Origin: Halorussus gelatinilyticus
GTDB lineage: Archaea > Halobacteriota > Halobacteria > Halobacteriales > Haladaptataceae
Assembly: GCF_023238445.1 (NCBI RefSeq)
Contig: NZ_CP096658.1
Location: 2,480,001-2,544,000, forward strand
Length of the DNA: 64,000 nt
Direction: 5' to 3'
Shown: one piece after another, positions 41,602 to 45,266 of the stretch
How positions within the stretch are numbered: position 1 is the first letter of the stretch
Layout of the letters: each line of letters opens with the position of its first letter
Position numbers and translations under genes: made by a program
The notes under the pieces: generated by a model
Told to the model about the DNA's origin: nothing
Database searches by the model: none
The model's input: only the letters and a program-made list of their open reading frames with translations

Positions 41602-42246
41602 TCACGCGCTCGGCGGGCGCTCGTCCGCGCCGAGGCGCATCTTCCGGTCGTGGTAGACGTGCGCCGCGGCCGAGGCGACGAGGACGAGCGCGAACGCGCC
41701 GGCGAGCGCGACCCCCGGCACCGCGCCGAACGGATCGACGCCGACCAGCGAGGCCAGCGTCATCGACCCGAAGAACGCGCCGAGCAGGAAGTAGTACTGG
41801 CTCCACGAGATTTCGTCGCCGGGGACGATTTCGAGGTAGACCCGGAGGTCGGCCAAGCCGTCGGCCGCGACGACGGTGCCCCGCGAGGCGTCGAACGCCA
41901 CGAGACCCGCGTCGTCCATCTTCGGGAGATGGGCCTGCTGGAGCGCGTTGTAGACCCGGCGGCGCTCCTGCGATGTCACCTCGTCGGGTCGCTTGTCGTT
42001 CTCCCACGCCGCGACCGCGCGGGCGAGGTCTCGGAGTTCGGCGTCGCGGTCATTGTCCAGCAGGTAGTGGACGACGTACCGGCGGCGGCTGTTGCTGAGC
42101 ATCTCGAAGACGACTTCCTGCGAGAACGCCGCCCCGTCGGTCGGTTCGTTCGCCTCGTCGCGGTCTTCTCGGTGGAGCGTTTCGGCGGCCATTGGATAGG
42201 TTCCCCCTGTCGGTCCGCGCGGGTCGGTCAACGTCGTGTTATTCAT
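41602..42246 (-). CDS. Membrane-anchored winged-helix regulator (DUF7344-like), copy B
   Basis: This 214-residue protein has a winged helix (about 40-120; 'VVFEMLSNSRRRYVVHYLLDNDRDAELRDLARAVAAWENDKRPDEVTSQERRRVYNALQQAHLPKMDDAGLVAFD') followed by two hydrophobic helices (about 142-165 and 168-192) and an Arg-rich cytoplasmic tail. It is a paralogue of 36318-36881. The start may be ATG 42246 (used) or ATG 42192. A GATAAAT box at about 42261-42267 predicts transcription from about 42238, which would favour 42192. It diverges from the Tat surface cluster, so control of those genes is a good hypothesis. Confidence 0.88.
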   Translation of the reverse strand: MNNTTLTDPRGPTGGTYPMAAETLHREDRDEANEPTDGAAFSQEVVFEMLSNSRRRYVVHYLLDNDRDAELRDLARAVAAWENDKRPDEVTSQERRRVYNALQQAHLPKMDDAGLVAFDASRGTVVAADGLADLRVYLEIVPGDEISWSQYYFLLGAFFGSMTLASLVGVDPFGAVPGVALAGAFALVLVASAAAHVYHDRKMRLGADERPPSA

Positions 42247-42512
42247 AACTTTCAGTTACTATTTATCTTCCGACGAGTTACGACTCGGTGCTCGCTGAAA
42301 TCATCACCTTCCCGAGAGGAAGCCGCGCCGTGGTGCGATTCTGGGGTCGTTTAACGGCCGGTAGGAGGCGCTTAACGAACCTTCTGGGGGTATATGCACT
42401 CCCTTCTCGTTCTCTTTGTGAGACGTGTCGGGGTGTATGAATAATGCGGAATCTCTCCATCGAGTGAAACGAGTCCTCCCGAGGAGAGGGCGCGGAGGAC
42501 ACGGACCTAACC
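42247..42512. promoter_or_regulatory. Divergent region between regulator B and the Tat surface gene cluster
   Basis: About 266 bases containing the leftward TATA-like box (about 42261-42267) and a rightward GGTATATGC box (about 42390-42398). The distance to the ATG at 42513 implies a leader of around 90 bases. The segment is AT-richer near both ends. No ORF above noise. Confidence 0.45.
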
Positions 42513-43646
42513 ATGAAATCGAACATCGAACTCGACCGGCGGAAGGTACTGGGTACAGTTGGCGGCCTCGCGCTCGCGGGGAGCGGACTCGCGGCGTTCA
42601 CGGGGAGCGCGGCCGCACAAGTGAGTACGAGCTTCAAGGCGAACAACGCGGGCACGGTGACGACCGCGGACGGGAGCATCCAGAAGGTGTTGGTGGACAC
42701 CTCCGGTACGTTCTCGTGGAGCGGTCTCGACTCGGCGGCCAAGACCGGGATGGTGACGCTCGAAGCCAAGAAGAAAGGCTCGCACCCGAACAACTACACC
42801 AAGGTCACGAGCAAGTCCTACTCCATCAACGGTCTCGACGGCGAGCGGTCGTTCACGCTCGACCAAGTGGACCTCACCGAGACCTTCGGCGACGACCACT
42901 TCGAGTCCGACGACGACGGCAAGAAGAAGACGACCGGCATCGACCTGCGCGTCTCGGTCACTATCACGACGACCGGCGGGAACGCCCACGACGCGAAGGC
43001 GGCGGACACGATGTACGTCGGCGCGGACAACAAAGCAGCCGACGCCAATATCCAAGGTGAGTCCGACGCCAGCGCGTCGAGCTACGACCAGCTCTACTCC
43101 TTCGACGAGGGCGGGCACCCGAACCTTGACCCCGAGACCTACCTCGCCAGCGACGTGGTCGGGGCACCCCTGACGGTCGAGGTCAGCTACGACGACCCGG
43201 TCGTCTACACGTTCCAGCTCCCGGCGGCGTTCACGAGCGGGTCGCAGGACAACCTCCCGGTACTGCTCGACGCGAACGACAACGGCACGGCGAACTATCA
43301 GGCCATCTACCACGCCTCGAACGGCGTGAGCTACCAGAAGAACGACGGGAGCGGTTGGAGCGAGGTTAGTTCCGTCTCGGGACTCGACATCTCCATCGAC
43401 TCGGCGATGGAGACCGTGACGGTCTCCATCAGTCGGAGCCTCATCAACTCGACGTACCGCCTCGGTTTCCGCCTCGCGTACGCCGGCGGCGGCGCGAGCG
43501 GGTACGACACGCTCGCGGACTCCTACCCCGACGGGACGAACTTTGCGGTGTGCAACGTCCCGCGCTCGGAGTTCCGCGACGAAACCGGCGGCTACTTCGG
43601 CCCGAACTGGACCTCCAGCGAACACTTCAAGACCGAGTCGCTGTAG
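42513..43646 (+). CDS. Tat-exported surface protein of unknown function
   Basis: This 377-residue protein has a Tat-like N-terminus (Asp-Arg-Arg-Lys-Val-Leu followed by a hydrophobic stretch and Ala-x-Ala at about 28-31). Two parts follow. The first (about 35-180) contains 'GTFSWSGLDSAAKTGMVTLEAKKK' and a beta-rich pattern shared with the next gene product. The second (about 200-377) has beta-sandwich-like strands ('APLTVEVSYDDPVVYTFQLPAAF', 'RLGFRLAYAGGG'). There is no C-terminal membrane helix. A single Cys lies near the end. I recognise no family; paralogy with the next gene is visible by eye. Confidence 0.75.
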   Translation: MKSNIELDRRKVLGTVGGLALAGSGLAAFTGSAAAQVSTSFKANNAGTVTTADGSIQKVLVDTSGTFSWSGLDSAAKTGMVTLEAKKKGSHPNNYTKVTSKSYSINGLDGERSFTLDQVDLTETFGDDHFESDDDGKKKTTGIDLRVSVTITTTGGNAHDAKAADTMYVGADNKAADANIQGESDASASSYDQLYSFDEGGHPNLDPETYLASDVVGAPLTVEVSYDDPVVYTFQLPAAFTSGSQDNLPVLLDANDNGTANYQAIYHASNGVSYQKNDGSGWSEVSSVSGLDISIDSAMETVTVSISRSLINSTYRLGFRLAYAGGGASGYDTLADSYPDGTNFAVCNVPRSEFRDETGGYFGPNWTSSEHFKTESL

Positions 43647-43683
43647 CGGCGCGTCGGTAGCGCCGTCGTCCGACCCGGCACCC

Positions 43684-43726
43684 GACCCACGTCGGCCTCG
43701 CGGGGGTTCGACTCCCCCGGTGGGTC
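43684..43726. other. Hairpin resembling a tRNA acceptor/T-arm, just before the next start codon
   Basis: A 5-bp stem GGGGG/CCCCC closes a TTCGACT loop (43702-43718), a T-arm-like motif. It sits inside a second, seven-base pairing of GACCCAC (43684-43690) with GTGGGTC (43720-43726). Only 11 bases occupy the place where D- and anticodon arms would be, so it is not a complete tRNA. It ends four bases before the ATG at 43731. Confidence 0.5.
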
Positions 43727-43730
43727 CTCC

Positions 43731-44675
43731 ATGAATCTCGACCGACGACGGCTGTTGGGCGTCATCGCGGGCGTCGCGTCGGGCGGCGCGGGCGCGTCGG
43801 CGTTCTCGTCTCGGAGCGGCGCGAGGGCCGGAGCCACCTTCGCGGCCGACGACCTGACGGTCCGGACCGACGACGGGGCGCTCGGTGCCGTCACGGTCGC
43901 GCCCGCGGGCACCGTCTCCTGGTCGGGCCTCGAAACCCCCGCCGGAGGGGTCGCGCTGACGCTGTACGCGAAGTACGCCGCCGACCTCCGGTTCCGGAAA
44001 CTCGCCGGCCAGCGCCTCCCGGCCGCGGGTCTCCACGGCGAAGCTGACTACGCCTTCCAGAGCCGGGACCTGCTCGCCGTCGAGGGGTTCGACACGAGCG
44101 ACTTCGACCCCGACGACGGCGAGCGCGCGACCCGGCGGGTCGCGCTCAGACTCGCGGTGACGGTGGTCGGTGCCGACGGCGAGACGACGCTGACGACGGG
44201 GTACGCCGACGCCCGATTCGACGTGACGGTCGTGAACCGCCCCGAGAGCGGCGGCGTCGATGGCCGGGCCAACACCGCCGCGACCGGCGACGAGACCTCC
44301 GAGAACGGGACGACGACCTCGGAGACCGCCGCCGAGAACGAGACCACGACGGCGACGACCACCGAGTCCAAACCGACCGACACGACGACCGAGACCGAGA
44401 CGAAAACGACCGCAGAGAACACCGCGACGACCACTTCCCGGCCGACCGCGACGGAGACGACGACCGAGAATCCGACGGAGACGACGACAACGACCGCGAC
44501 GACCTCCGAGAACGCTACGACCGCCTCCGGAAGGACGACCGGCTCGGACACGACGACCCGAACCACCGCGACGACTTCGGACCGGAATAATACAGAGGCG
44601 GTGGAGAACAATACAAACATATCTAAAAGCAATACAGATAGTTCTAAGGGCCGAGACGCGGCCGACGGGAAGTGA
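43731..44675 (+). CDS. Tat-exported paralogue with long Thr-rich stalk
   Basis: This 314-residue protein has a Tat-like N-terminus (Asp-Arg-Arg-Arg-Leu-Leu-Gly). The next 150 residues match the first part of the upstream gene product ('GTVSWSGLETPAGGVALTLYAKYAA'). A stalk of more than 120 residues then follows, dominated by Thr, Glu and Asn, ending in Asn/Ser/Lys-rich 'NNTNISKSNTDSSKGRDAADGK'. There is no membrane anchor. The DNA for the last 25 codons (about 44580-44655) is unusually AT-rich for the region. The stalk suggests cell-surface glycosylation and attachment to another component. Confidence 0.72.
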   Translation: MNLDRRRLLGVIAGVASGGAGASAFSSRSGARAGATFAADDLTVRTDDGALGAVTVAPAGTVSWSGLETPAGGVALTLYAKYAADLRFRKLAGQRLPAAGLHGEADYAFQSRDLLAVEGFDTSDFDPDDGERATRRVALRLAVTVVGADGETTLTTGYADARFDVTVVNRPESGGVDGRANTAATGDETSENGTTTSETAAENETTTATTTESKPTDTTTETETKTTAENTATTTSRPTATETTTENPTETTTTTATTSENATTASGRTTGSDTTTRTTATTSDRNNTEAVENNTNISKSNTDSSKGRDAADGK

Positions 44676-44677
44676 CG

Positions 44678-45266
44678 ATGGCGGCGAAACGAGGGCCGCT
44701 GGCCGCGCTGTCCGTCACGAAGCGCGGCGTCGTCGTCCTGCTGGTCGTCTCGGCGGGCGTCCTCGGGGCCGGATTCGGCGTCTTACCGGGACTGCTCGGC
44801 GGGAGCGACCCGGCGGACCTCGGTCGGGGCACCGACCGAGGAGACGCCGCGAGCGACCGCGACCGAAGCGGAACAGACCACGCGCACAGCGACCGCGACG
44901 AGGCAGGCCGGGTCGAGCGACGGCGGCGATGGCTCTCCCGTCGGGACGACGACCGGCGACGGAACGGCCGCGACGACCCGCGAAACGACCGCCGACTCCG
45001 CCGACGCGGACCGCGACGACGACAACGACCGCCGAGACCGGCGTTCGACCGGCCGGAGCGACCCCGAAGTCGGCGTGCGGGCCGAGGCGAACGCGACGGT
45101 CGCGTCGCTGTCGGGCGTTGCGTCGTTGTCGGACGGGACATCGCTGCCGGGCGTCGCGCCGCCGAACGGCGGCGCGACGCCCTCGTCTCGCGGTTTCCCG
45201 TCTGCGCTCGCGTCGAAGCAAATTGGCTCTCCCGGTCTCGACCGCGCTATCCGAGCAGGAGTCTGA
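44678..45266 (+). pseudogene. Membrane-anchored third gene of the surface cluster, apparently frameshifted
   Basis: The first 50 codons give a believable product: MAAKRGPLAAL, a basic stretch and a hydrophobic helix (about 17-42), then 'GGSDPADLG'. After about 44826 this frame turns into Arg-rich nonsense, while the +1 frame (codons at positions divisible by three) reads a normal haloarchaeal acidic stalk (Thr/Ala/Asp/Glu-rich, including 'RAEANATVASLSGVAS') down to TGA at 45264-45266. The change of frame lies between about 44800 and 44850. The ATG is only two bases after the previous stop, so it belongs to the same unit. It could be a sequencing error or a real mutation. Confidence 0.6.

Follow-up and report, generated by a model that had tools for sequence, protein, structure and literature searches.

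Between two genes for exported proteins of Halorussus gelatinilyticus, we found a tRNA-like element (t-element) of 43 nucleotides (nt) that is a structured RNA and resembles the elements preceding haloarchaeal 5S rRNA genes. It lies at 43684-43726 (+ strand) in the window, a stretch of 64,000 nt of NZ_CP096658.1 (positions 2,480,001 to 2,544,000) from the 3.67-Mb genome of this haloarchaeon; unless otherwise stated, positions are those of the window. The gene upstream of the element (P1) and the gene downstream (P2) encode proteins that share an unnamed domain, and P2 is followed by a third gene (P3) for a putative membrane anchor. The t-element probably serves to cut the P1/P2 message of a membrane-tethered surface assembly of immunoglobulin (Ig)-like domains, and it would do the same job in operons of the SipW/TasA type. 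The original prediction, which was made from the letters of the window and their open reading frames, had overlooked this intergenic element, the most unusual feature of the cluster, as well as the conserved genes flanking the cluster and the occurrence of the shared domain in third-gene products of other taxonomic families.

A structured RNA between P1 and P2

The fold of the element corresponds to the acceptor and T arms of a tRNA; where the D and anticodon arms would be, there is just a short linker. An acceptor-like stem of 7 bp (43684-43690 with 43720-43726, GACCCAC/GTGGGTC) encloses a linker of about 10 nt that bears GG (43691-43700) and a T-arm consisting of a 6-bp stem (43701-43706 with 43714-43719) and the seven-base loop TTCGACT (43707-43713). 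Four nucleotides, CTCC (43727-43730), separate the end of the element from the ATG of P2. Seven species show the element almost unchanged between flanks that have diverged, and in three genomes of other families (G168, G150 and G104) it likewise follows P1, with the changes in its stems compensated. The spacer from P1 to the element has an A+T content of 19%; no TATA-like promoter is thus evident, an observation that speaks against a promoter of its own for P2 in this spacer. The host genome contains no second copy of the element and no matching tRNA within three mismatches. Rfam has no family for it, and the best Rfam match was mascRNA-menRNA (RF01684), with 19.2 bits and an E value of 0.32 against a gathering score of 42.5. 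A real tRNA gene was ruled out, because the element lacks a cloverleaf with an anticodon arm and ARAGORN found no tRNA in the window. Over the loci that carry elements, ARAGORN made four weak calls, two of which (L169 and L178) cover weak elements.

Two covariance models were built, R1 from ten cluster elements and R2 from 141 elements. Across these 141 elements, 95.3% of the cells pair, and 10 of the 13 base pairs change on both sides. Compensated cells numbered 131, compared to 31.8 +/- 4.8 in shuffled alignments (0 of 500 shuffles as high), and pairing reached at most 58.5% when one strand was slid by one to three columns. An alignment of ten sequences with MAFFT gave the same covariation outcome on a smaller scale. 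Furthermore, the T-loop reads TTCGA[CT]T in 138 of the 141 elements and TTCAAYT in three, a uniformity that the search model partly favours, and GG was present in the linker of 127 of 138 elements.

Genomic setting and likeness to 5S rRNA t-elements

R1 matched 207 of 391 Halobacteria genomes at E <= 0.1, part of the matches being 5S t-elements. At E <= 1e-3, R2 matched 216 of the 391 genomes; 5S t-elements are included here as well, so this census is not readable as a count of mRNA elements only. Matches were found in 30 of 295 genomes of the phylum, and all 30 belong to the order of the host. Inspection of the loci placed the elements between genes in tandem that encode either TasA-like proteins dependent on SipW or exported proteins bearing a G[TS]GAFTS signal, and annotated cases occur in Halorubrum ezzemoulense (on a megaplasmid, L200) and Natronorubrum aibiense. 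None of the 141 elements lies inside a called gene, and their neighbour genes are on the same strand in 216 cases and on the opposite strand in 2. Of the 141 elements, 85 stand ahead of a gene showing a strict TasA or GAFTS signature; among 119 background genes, 0 had one. For these 85 genes, the ATG lies at a median of 22 nt from the element, and for all 141 elements the upstream stop codon lies at a median of 27 nt from it. When 60 loci were sampled with loose patterns, signatures of exported or surface proteins were present on at least one side in 55, and two of the remaining five elements are 5S rRNA elements, as judged by the sequence that follows them.

In several TasA-type loci (L117, L118, L121, L132 and L135), a second small hairpin with C-rich and G-rich strands (e.g. 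CCCC...GGGG) lies between the element and the start codon and perhaps holds a ribosome-binding sequence. We also observed tRNA-like elements outside a recognised surface-protein context, at L186:2953-2997 (- strand; loop TTCAATT), where the element precedes a gene starting MSKYDNLLAVETTENAEP, at L190:2974-3017, where a second tRNA-like relic comes after it, and at L196:2979-3025.

The host genome has two 5S t-elements of its own, at L198:1453-1500 (genome positions 1316588-1316635) and at genome positions 3515102-3515149 (- strand), both of which end where the 5S gene begins. When R2 was run on the whole host genome, the P1-P2 site scored 63.3 bits, followed by the 5S elements with 40.0 and 39.7 bits and the next match with 21.6 bits. 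All 13 pairs are formed in the host's 5S element, and its linker, CTGGCGTA, recurs in mRNA elements. In Haloferax volcanii, tRNase Z cuts the 5S t-element to give the 5' end of 5S rRNA (Hoelzle 2008 and 2012, as cited in PMC3296008 and PMC4326828), and t-elements that flank a CRISPR RNA (crRNA) are substrates of RNase P and tRNase Z in vivo (PMC4946936). The present elements share with the H. volcanii 5S t-element the acceptor-like stem, the short GG-bearing linker and the T-arm with a TTCGAYT loop, and, like it, they stand directly 5' of the RNA that would be released. Unlike the 5S t-element, a proven substrate of tRNase Z, they are putative cleavage sites, and they occupy hundreds of sites between protein-coding genes of operons, tied to genes for exported surface proteins. 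The mascRNA-menRNA element at the 3' end of MALAT1 also has a tRNA-like fold without a full anticodon arm and stands at the end of a longer transcript, but it is eukaryotic and we claim no kinship.

The exported proteins and their gene cluster

P1 (42513-43646, + strand; 377 amino acids (aa)) and P2 (43731-44675, + strand; 314 aa) aligned in BLASTP over 148 aa with 35% identity (E 3e-15), which makes the shared domain genuine and not a product of chance. As delimited by alignment, it covers about residues 35-194 of P1 (42615-43094), where a variable C-terminal half follows, and about 43812-44270 in P2, where it gives way to a Thr/Glu/Asn-rich stalk; these are the only two copies in the host genome. 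Twin-arginine signals (DRRKVLG and DRRRLLG), each followed by a hydrophobic stretch, are conserved in orthologues, and both proteins are predicted to be exported via the twin-arginine translocation (Tat) route. Hydropathy revealed no transmembrane segment in either. The original prediction had described just such a pair, with Tat signals, a common domain, no anchor of their own and a long stalk on P2, and on all these points our analysis agrees with it. Its statement that no family name is recognised holds for P1 and P2, which matched no family in Pfam, NCBIfam or PHROG; the adjoining regulator belongs to PF24035 (DUF7344).

An AlphaFold model of the P2 domain was an Ig-like beta sandwich, with a predicted local distance difference test (pLDDT) score of 82.7; the full-length model of P1 was poor (pLDDT 52.4). 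The fold matches of the P2 domain were generic Ig-like ones (the CPE0147 adhesin repeat, GH2 middle domains and RbmA; best Z 8.8), with TasA absent among the matches listed, and neither P1 nor P2 matched PF12389 (TasA/camelysin) up to an E value of 1. The shared domain was found in 108 of the 391 Halobacteria genomes and in 41 of 86 genera, frequently in lone genes for exported proteins; homologues without the neighbours, which the original prediction had named as telling against it, thus do occur in part as far as the domain is concerned. Membrane-anchored proteins within SipW/TasA-type clusters also carry the domain (L077, L078 and L085), and these copies adjoin PF12389 proteins, signal peptidases, DUF7344 genes or a small membrane protein. 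At L077:2344-4224 (- strand), the encoded protein has an N-terminal part that is Hint-like by eye and a C-terminal end resembling TasA, and it also contains a membrane segment and the shared domain. A viral or plasmid origin of the domain was rejected, as searches of phage records, of plasmids and of IMG/VR (three scans) gave no match. Single-domain homologues at L013 and L073 adjoin ParA-like genes, a plasmid- or virus-like setting, with no match in the viral, phage and plasmid collections.

No reading frame joins the ATG of P3 (44678) to the stop codon at 45266. The frame of the ATG holds the start, a membrane segment and the beginning of the stalk (44678-44816, + strand), as indicated by hydropathy and by intact orthologues, and then an Arg-rich tail that ends at 45322; the stop at 45266 is in a different frame, which holds the remainder of the stalk and, at its end, the motif VGVRAEANATVASLS plus a tail (44817-45266, + strand). 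Compared to the intact gene of G008 (L084), the nearest relative, the window is 2 nt short near 44817, and it is this deletion that puts the remainder of P3 in another frame. The deletion may be a sequencing error, a recent lesion or recoding; P3 is intact in relatives. The small membrane-anchored stalk proposed for the third gene is thus present as far as its membrane segment goes, but its frame is broken in this genome. In G104, G168 and G150, all from other families, the third-gene product ends in a full shared domain, which in G104 and G168 is preceded by a membrane segment and a stalk; in G150 the start was probably called too late. These products indicate that P3 is an anchored member of the same family, and the proposal that it tethers P1 and P2 therefore gains weight. 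In the host's own family, all that P3 retains of the domain is a motif at its C-terminus, similar to the end of the domain in P1 (GESDASASSYDQ).

Divergent from P1 lies the DUF7344 winged-helix regulator (41602-42246, - strand; PF24035, E 2e-31), which has the membrane character assigned to it from the start, in the form of C-terminal hydrophobic stretches, and passes the Pfam gathering score (108.6 bits vs 27.8). Its homologues adjoin the cluster in the host's own family and in L066, L068 and L069; a literature search turned up no publication naming PF24035 or DUF7344. Beyond the regulator, a gene for an S9-family peptidase of the prolyl oligopeptidase type (39581-41506, + strand; PF00326, E 5e-49) occupies the same position in L032-L035 and L084 and is a constant neighbour of the cluster within the own family. 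On the other side, a convergent gene encodes a 121-aa membrane protein (45247-45612, - strand) with no Pfam family above the cut-off and homologous neighbours in the own family and in L067, L068, L069, L077 and L085. The order S9 peptidase, DUF7344, P1, P2, P3 and small membrane gene is kept across the own family, with synteny in eight genomes and P2 absent from one of them (L035). In four genomes of other families (G168, G150, G104 and G345), P-type genes are accompanied by DUF7344, the small membrane gene or both, without the peptidase. A survey of neighbours, as the original prediction had proposed, thus gave conserved company in these genomes, but also the many lone copies of the domain. 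Named relatives that bear the cluster are Halorussus ruber, halophilic archaeon LT46 and Halomicrococcus gelatinilyticus. Near the cluster, the 768-aa product of 37303-39609 (- strand) shows FG-GAP-like repeats by eye, has a C-terminal stalk rich in Thr and Glu and is another likely surface protein. Upstream of P1, a block at 42403-42446 (TTCTCG...TTTGTGAGACGTGTCGGGGTGTATGAATAAT) is conserved among relatives and is a candidate promoter or operator for the DUF7344 regulator.

The idea of a surface assembly with its own regulator was upheld in that the cluster is conserved, but not as something apart, since the domain is not exclusive to it. The cluster in the window is most aptly viewed as a cousin of the SipW/TasA systems that itself lacks SipW and TasA. 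With the haloarchaeal SipW/TasA (PF12389) clusters it has in common the DUF7344 regulators, the intergenic element and a membrane-anchored protein of the shared-domain family, and some of those clusters also have its small membrane protein. Unlike them, it has no signal peptidase gene, and P1 and P2 lack a PF12389 match or a SipW-type signal. The Bacillus tapA-sipW-tasA biofilm operon, which also unites a main exported and an accessory subunit, offers an analogy only, as P1 and P2 have no sequence match to TasA; we know of no such RNA element in that operon.

Proposed processing of the message and rival explanations

We infer that P1, P2 and P3 are transcribed as a single message under the DUF7344 regulator, within which the element would fold as an acceptor/T-arm minihelix. 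In tRNAs this minihelix is the part recognised by tRNase Z and RNase P. Here tRNase Z would cut on the 3' side of the element, and RNase P possibly on the 5' side. The P1 message would then have its 3' end at the element or upstream of it, and the message for P2 and P3 would start a few nucleotides ahead of the P2 ATG and be near-leaderless; haloarchaea translate leaderless messages. For TasA-type clusters, a leader of about 20 nt is predicted, often with the small C-rich/G-rich hairpin in it. As cutting would separate P1 from the P2-P3 message, the anchor, the stalk and the main subunits could be produced in different amounts. The product would be a membrane-tethered cell-surface assembly of Ig-like domains, with P1 and P2 exported by Tat and P3 as the membrane-anchored base. 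Many SipW/TasA-type surface-protein operons of haloarchaea may use the same element for the same job.

Several points weigh against this explanation. The cluster is wholly absent from several genomes of the genus, P3 is frameshifted in the host, and it is the accompanying genes, not a homologous fold, that connect the cluster to surface filaments. The alignment of 141 rows, having been fitted to the model, leans towards structure, two R2 training rows (L192 and L195) are 5S elements of other genomes, which brings a small circularity into the comparison with 5S elements, and some distal acceptor pairs are absent in part of the elements. Covariation demonstrates structure and does not prove cutting, and a 2012 study of H. 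volcanii reportedly found that the genomic tRNA-like candidates it tested, perhaps of another kind, were uncut in vitro. The element might accordingly be a structured part of the mRNA that is never cut and that protects the upstream 3' end, tunes initiation of the next gene or binds a tRNA-binding or tRNA-modifying protein. A conserved structure in a conserved position fits any role at the RNA level, the window element ends just 4 nt from a start codon, and the uncut candidates of that study would be precedents. We nevertheless consider an uncut element unlikely, because every feature tested, including the linker and the T-loop, is common to the 5S t-element, a proven tRNase Z substrate, and because the acceptor/T-arm minihelix is exactly what tRNase Z and RNase P recognise.

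It is far less probable still, indeed barely credible, that the feature acts as DNA, either as the fossil 3' end of a tRNA left by an integrating element or as a site of recombination by which surface-protein genes in tandem are shuffled. Integration often takes place at tRNA 3' ends, and the elements do lie between tandem paralogues, but compensatory changes in both stems, neighbours on the same strand (216 vs 2), the spacing of about 22 nt before start codons, the lack in the host genome of a second copy or near-matching tRNA, and the failure of the shared domain to match phage, plasmid and viral collections all speak against it. With regard to the proteins, P1, P2 and P3 might not build one structure but act separately, as exported proteins for binding or sensing whose signals go to the membrane-associated DUF7344 regulator. 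Ig-like folds serve many binding roles, the adjoining regulator has hydrophobic stretches of its own, and the domain also occurs alone; we regard this possibility as doubtful, since SipW/TasA-type genes, which have fibre-forming relatives in bacteria, occur together with this regulator family, the element and domain proteins of the anchor type, and since P3 of other families carries the P1/P2 domain.

Haloarchaeal tRNA-like cut signals were known before 5S rRNA and as engineered tools. To our knowledge, there is no earlier description of a conserved family of mRNA t-elements that is linked to a single functional class of genes throughout an order. On balance, we lean towards the view that tRNase Z and RNase P of haloarchaea process surface-protein mRNAs, with a t-element family that splits messages, sets subunit ratios and creates short-leader or leaderless messages. 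If so, archaeal mRNA processing would gain a defined and predictable signal together with its enzyme, and the unequal expression of tandem surface-subunit genes from one promoter would be explained. In addition, an unnamed surface-protein domain present in more than a quarter of the sampled Halobacteria genomes is now placed beside the archaeal TasA-like systems.

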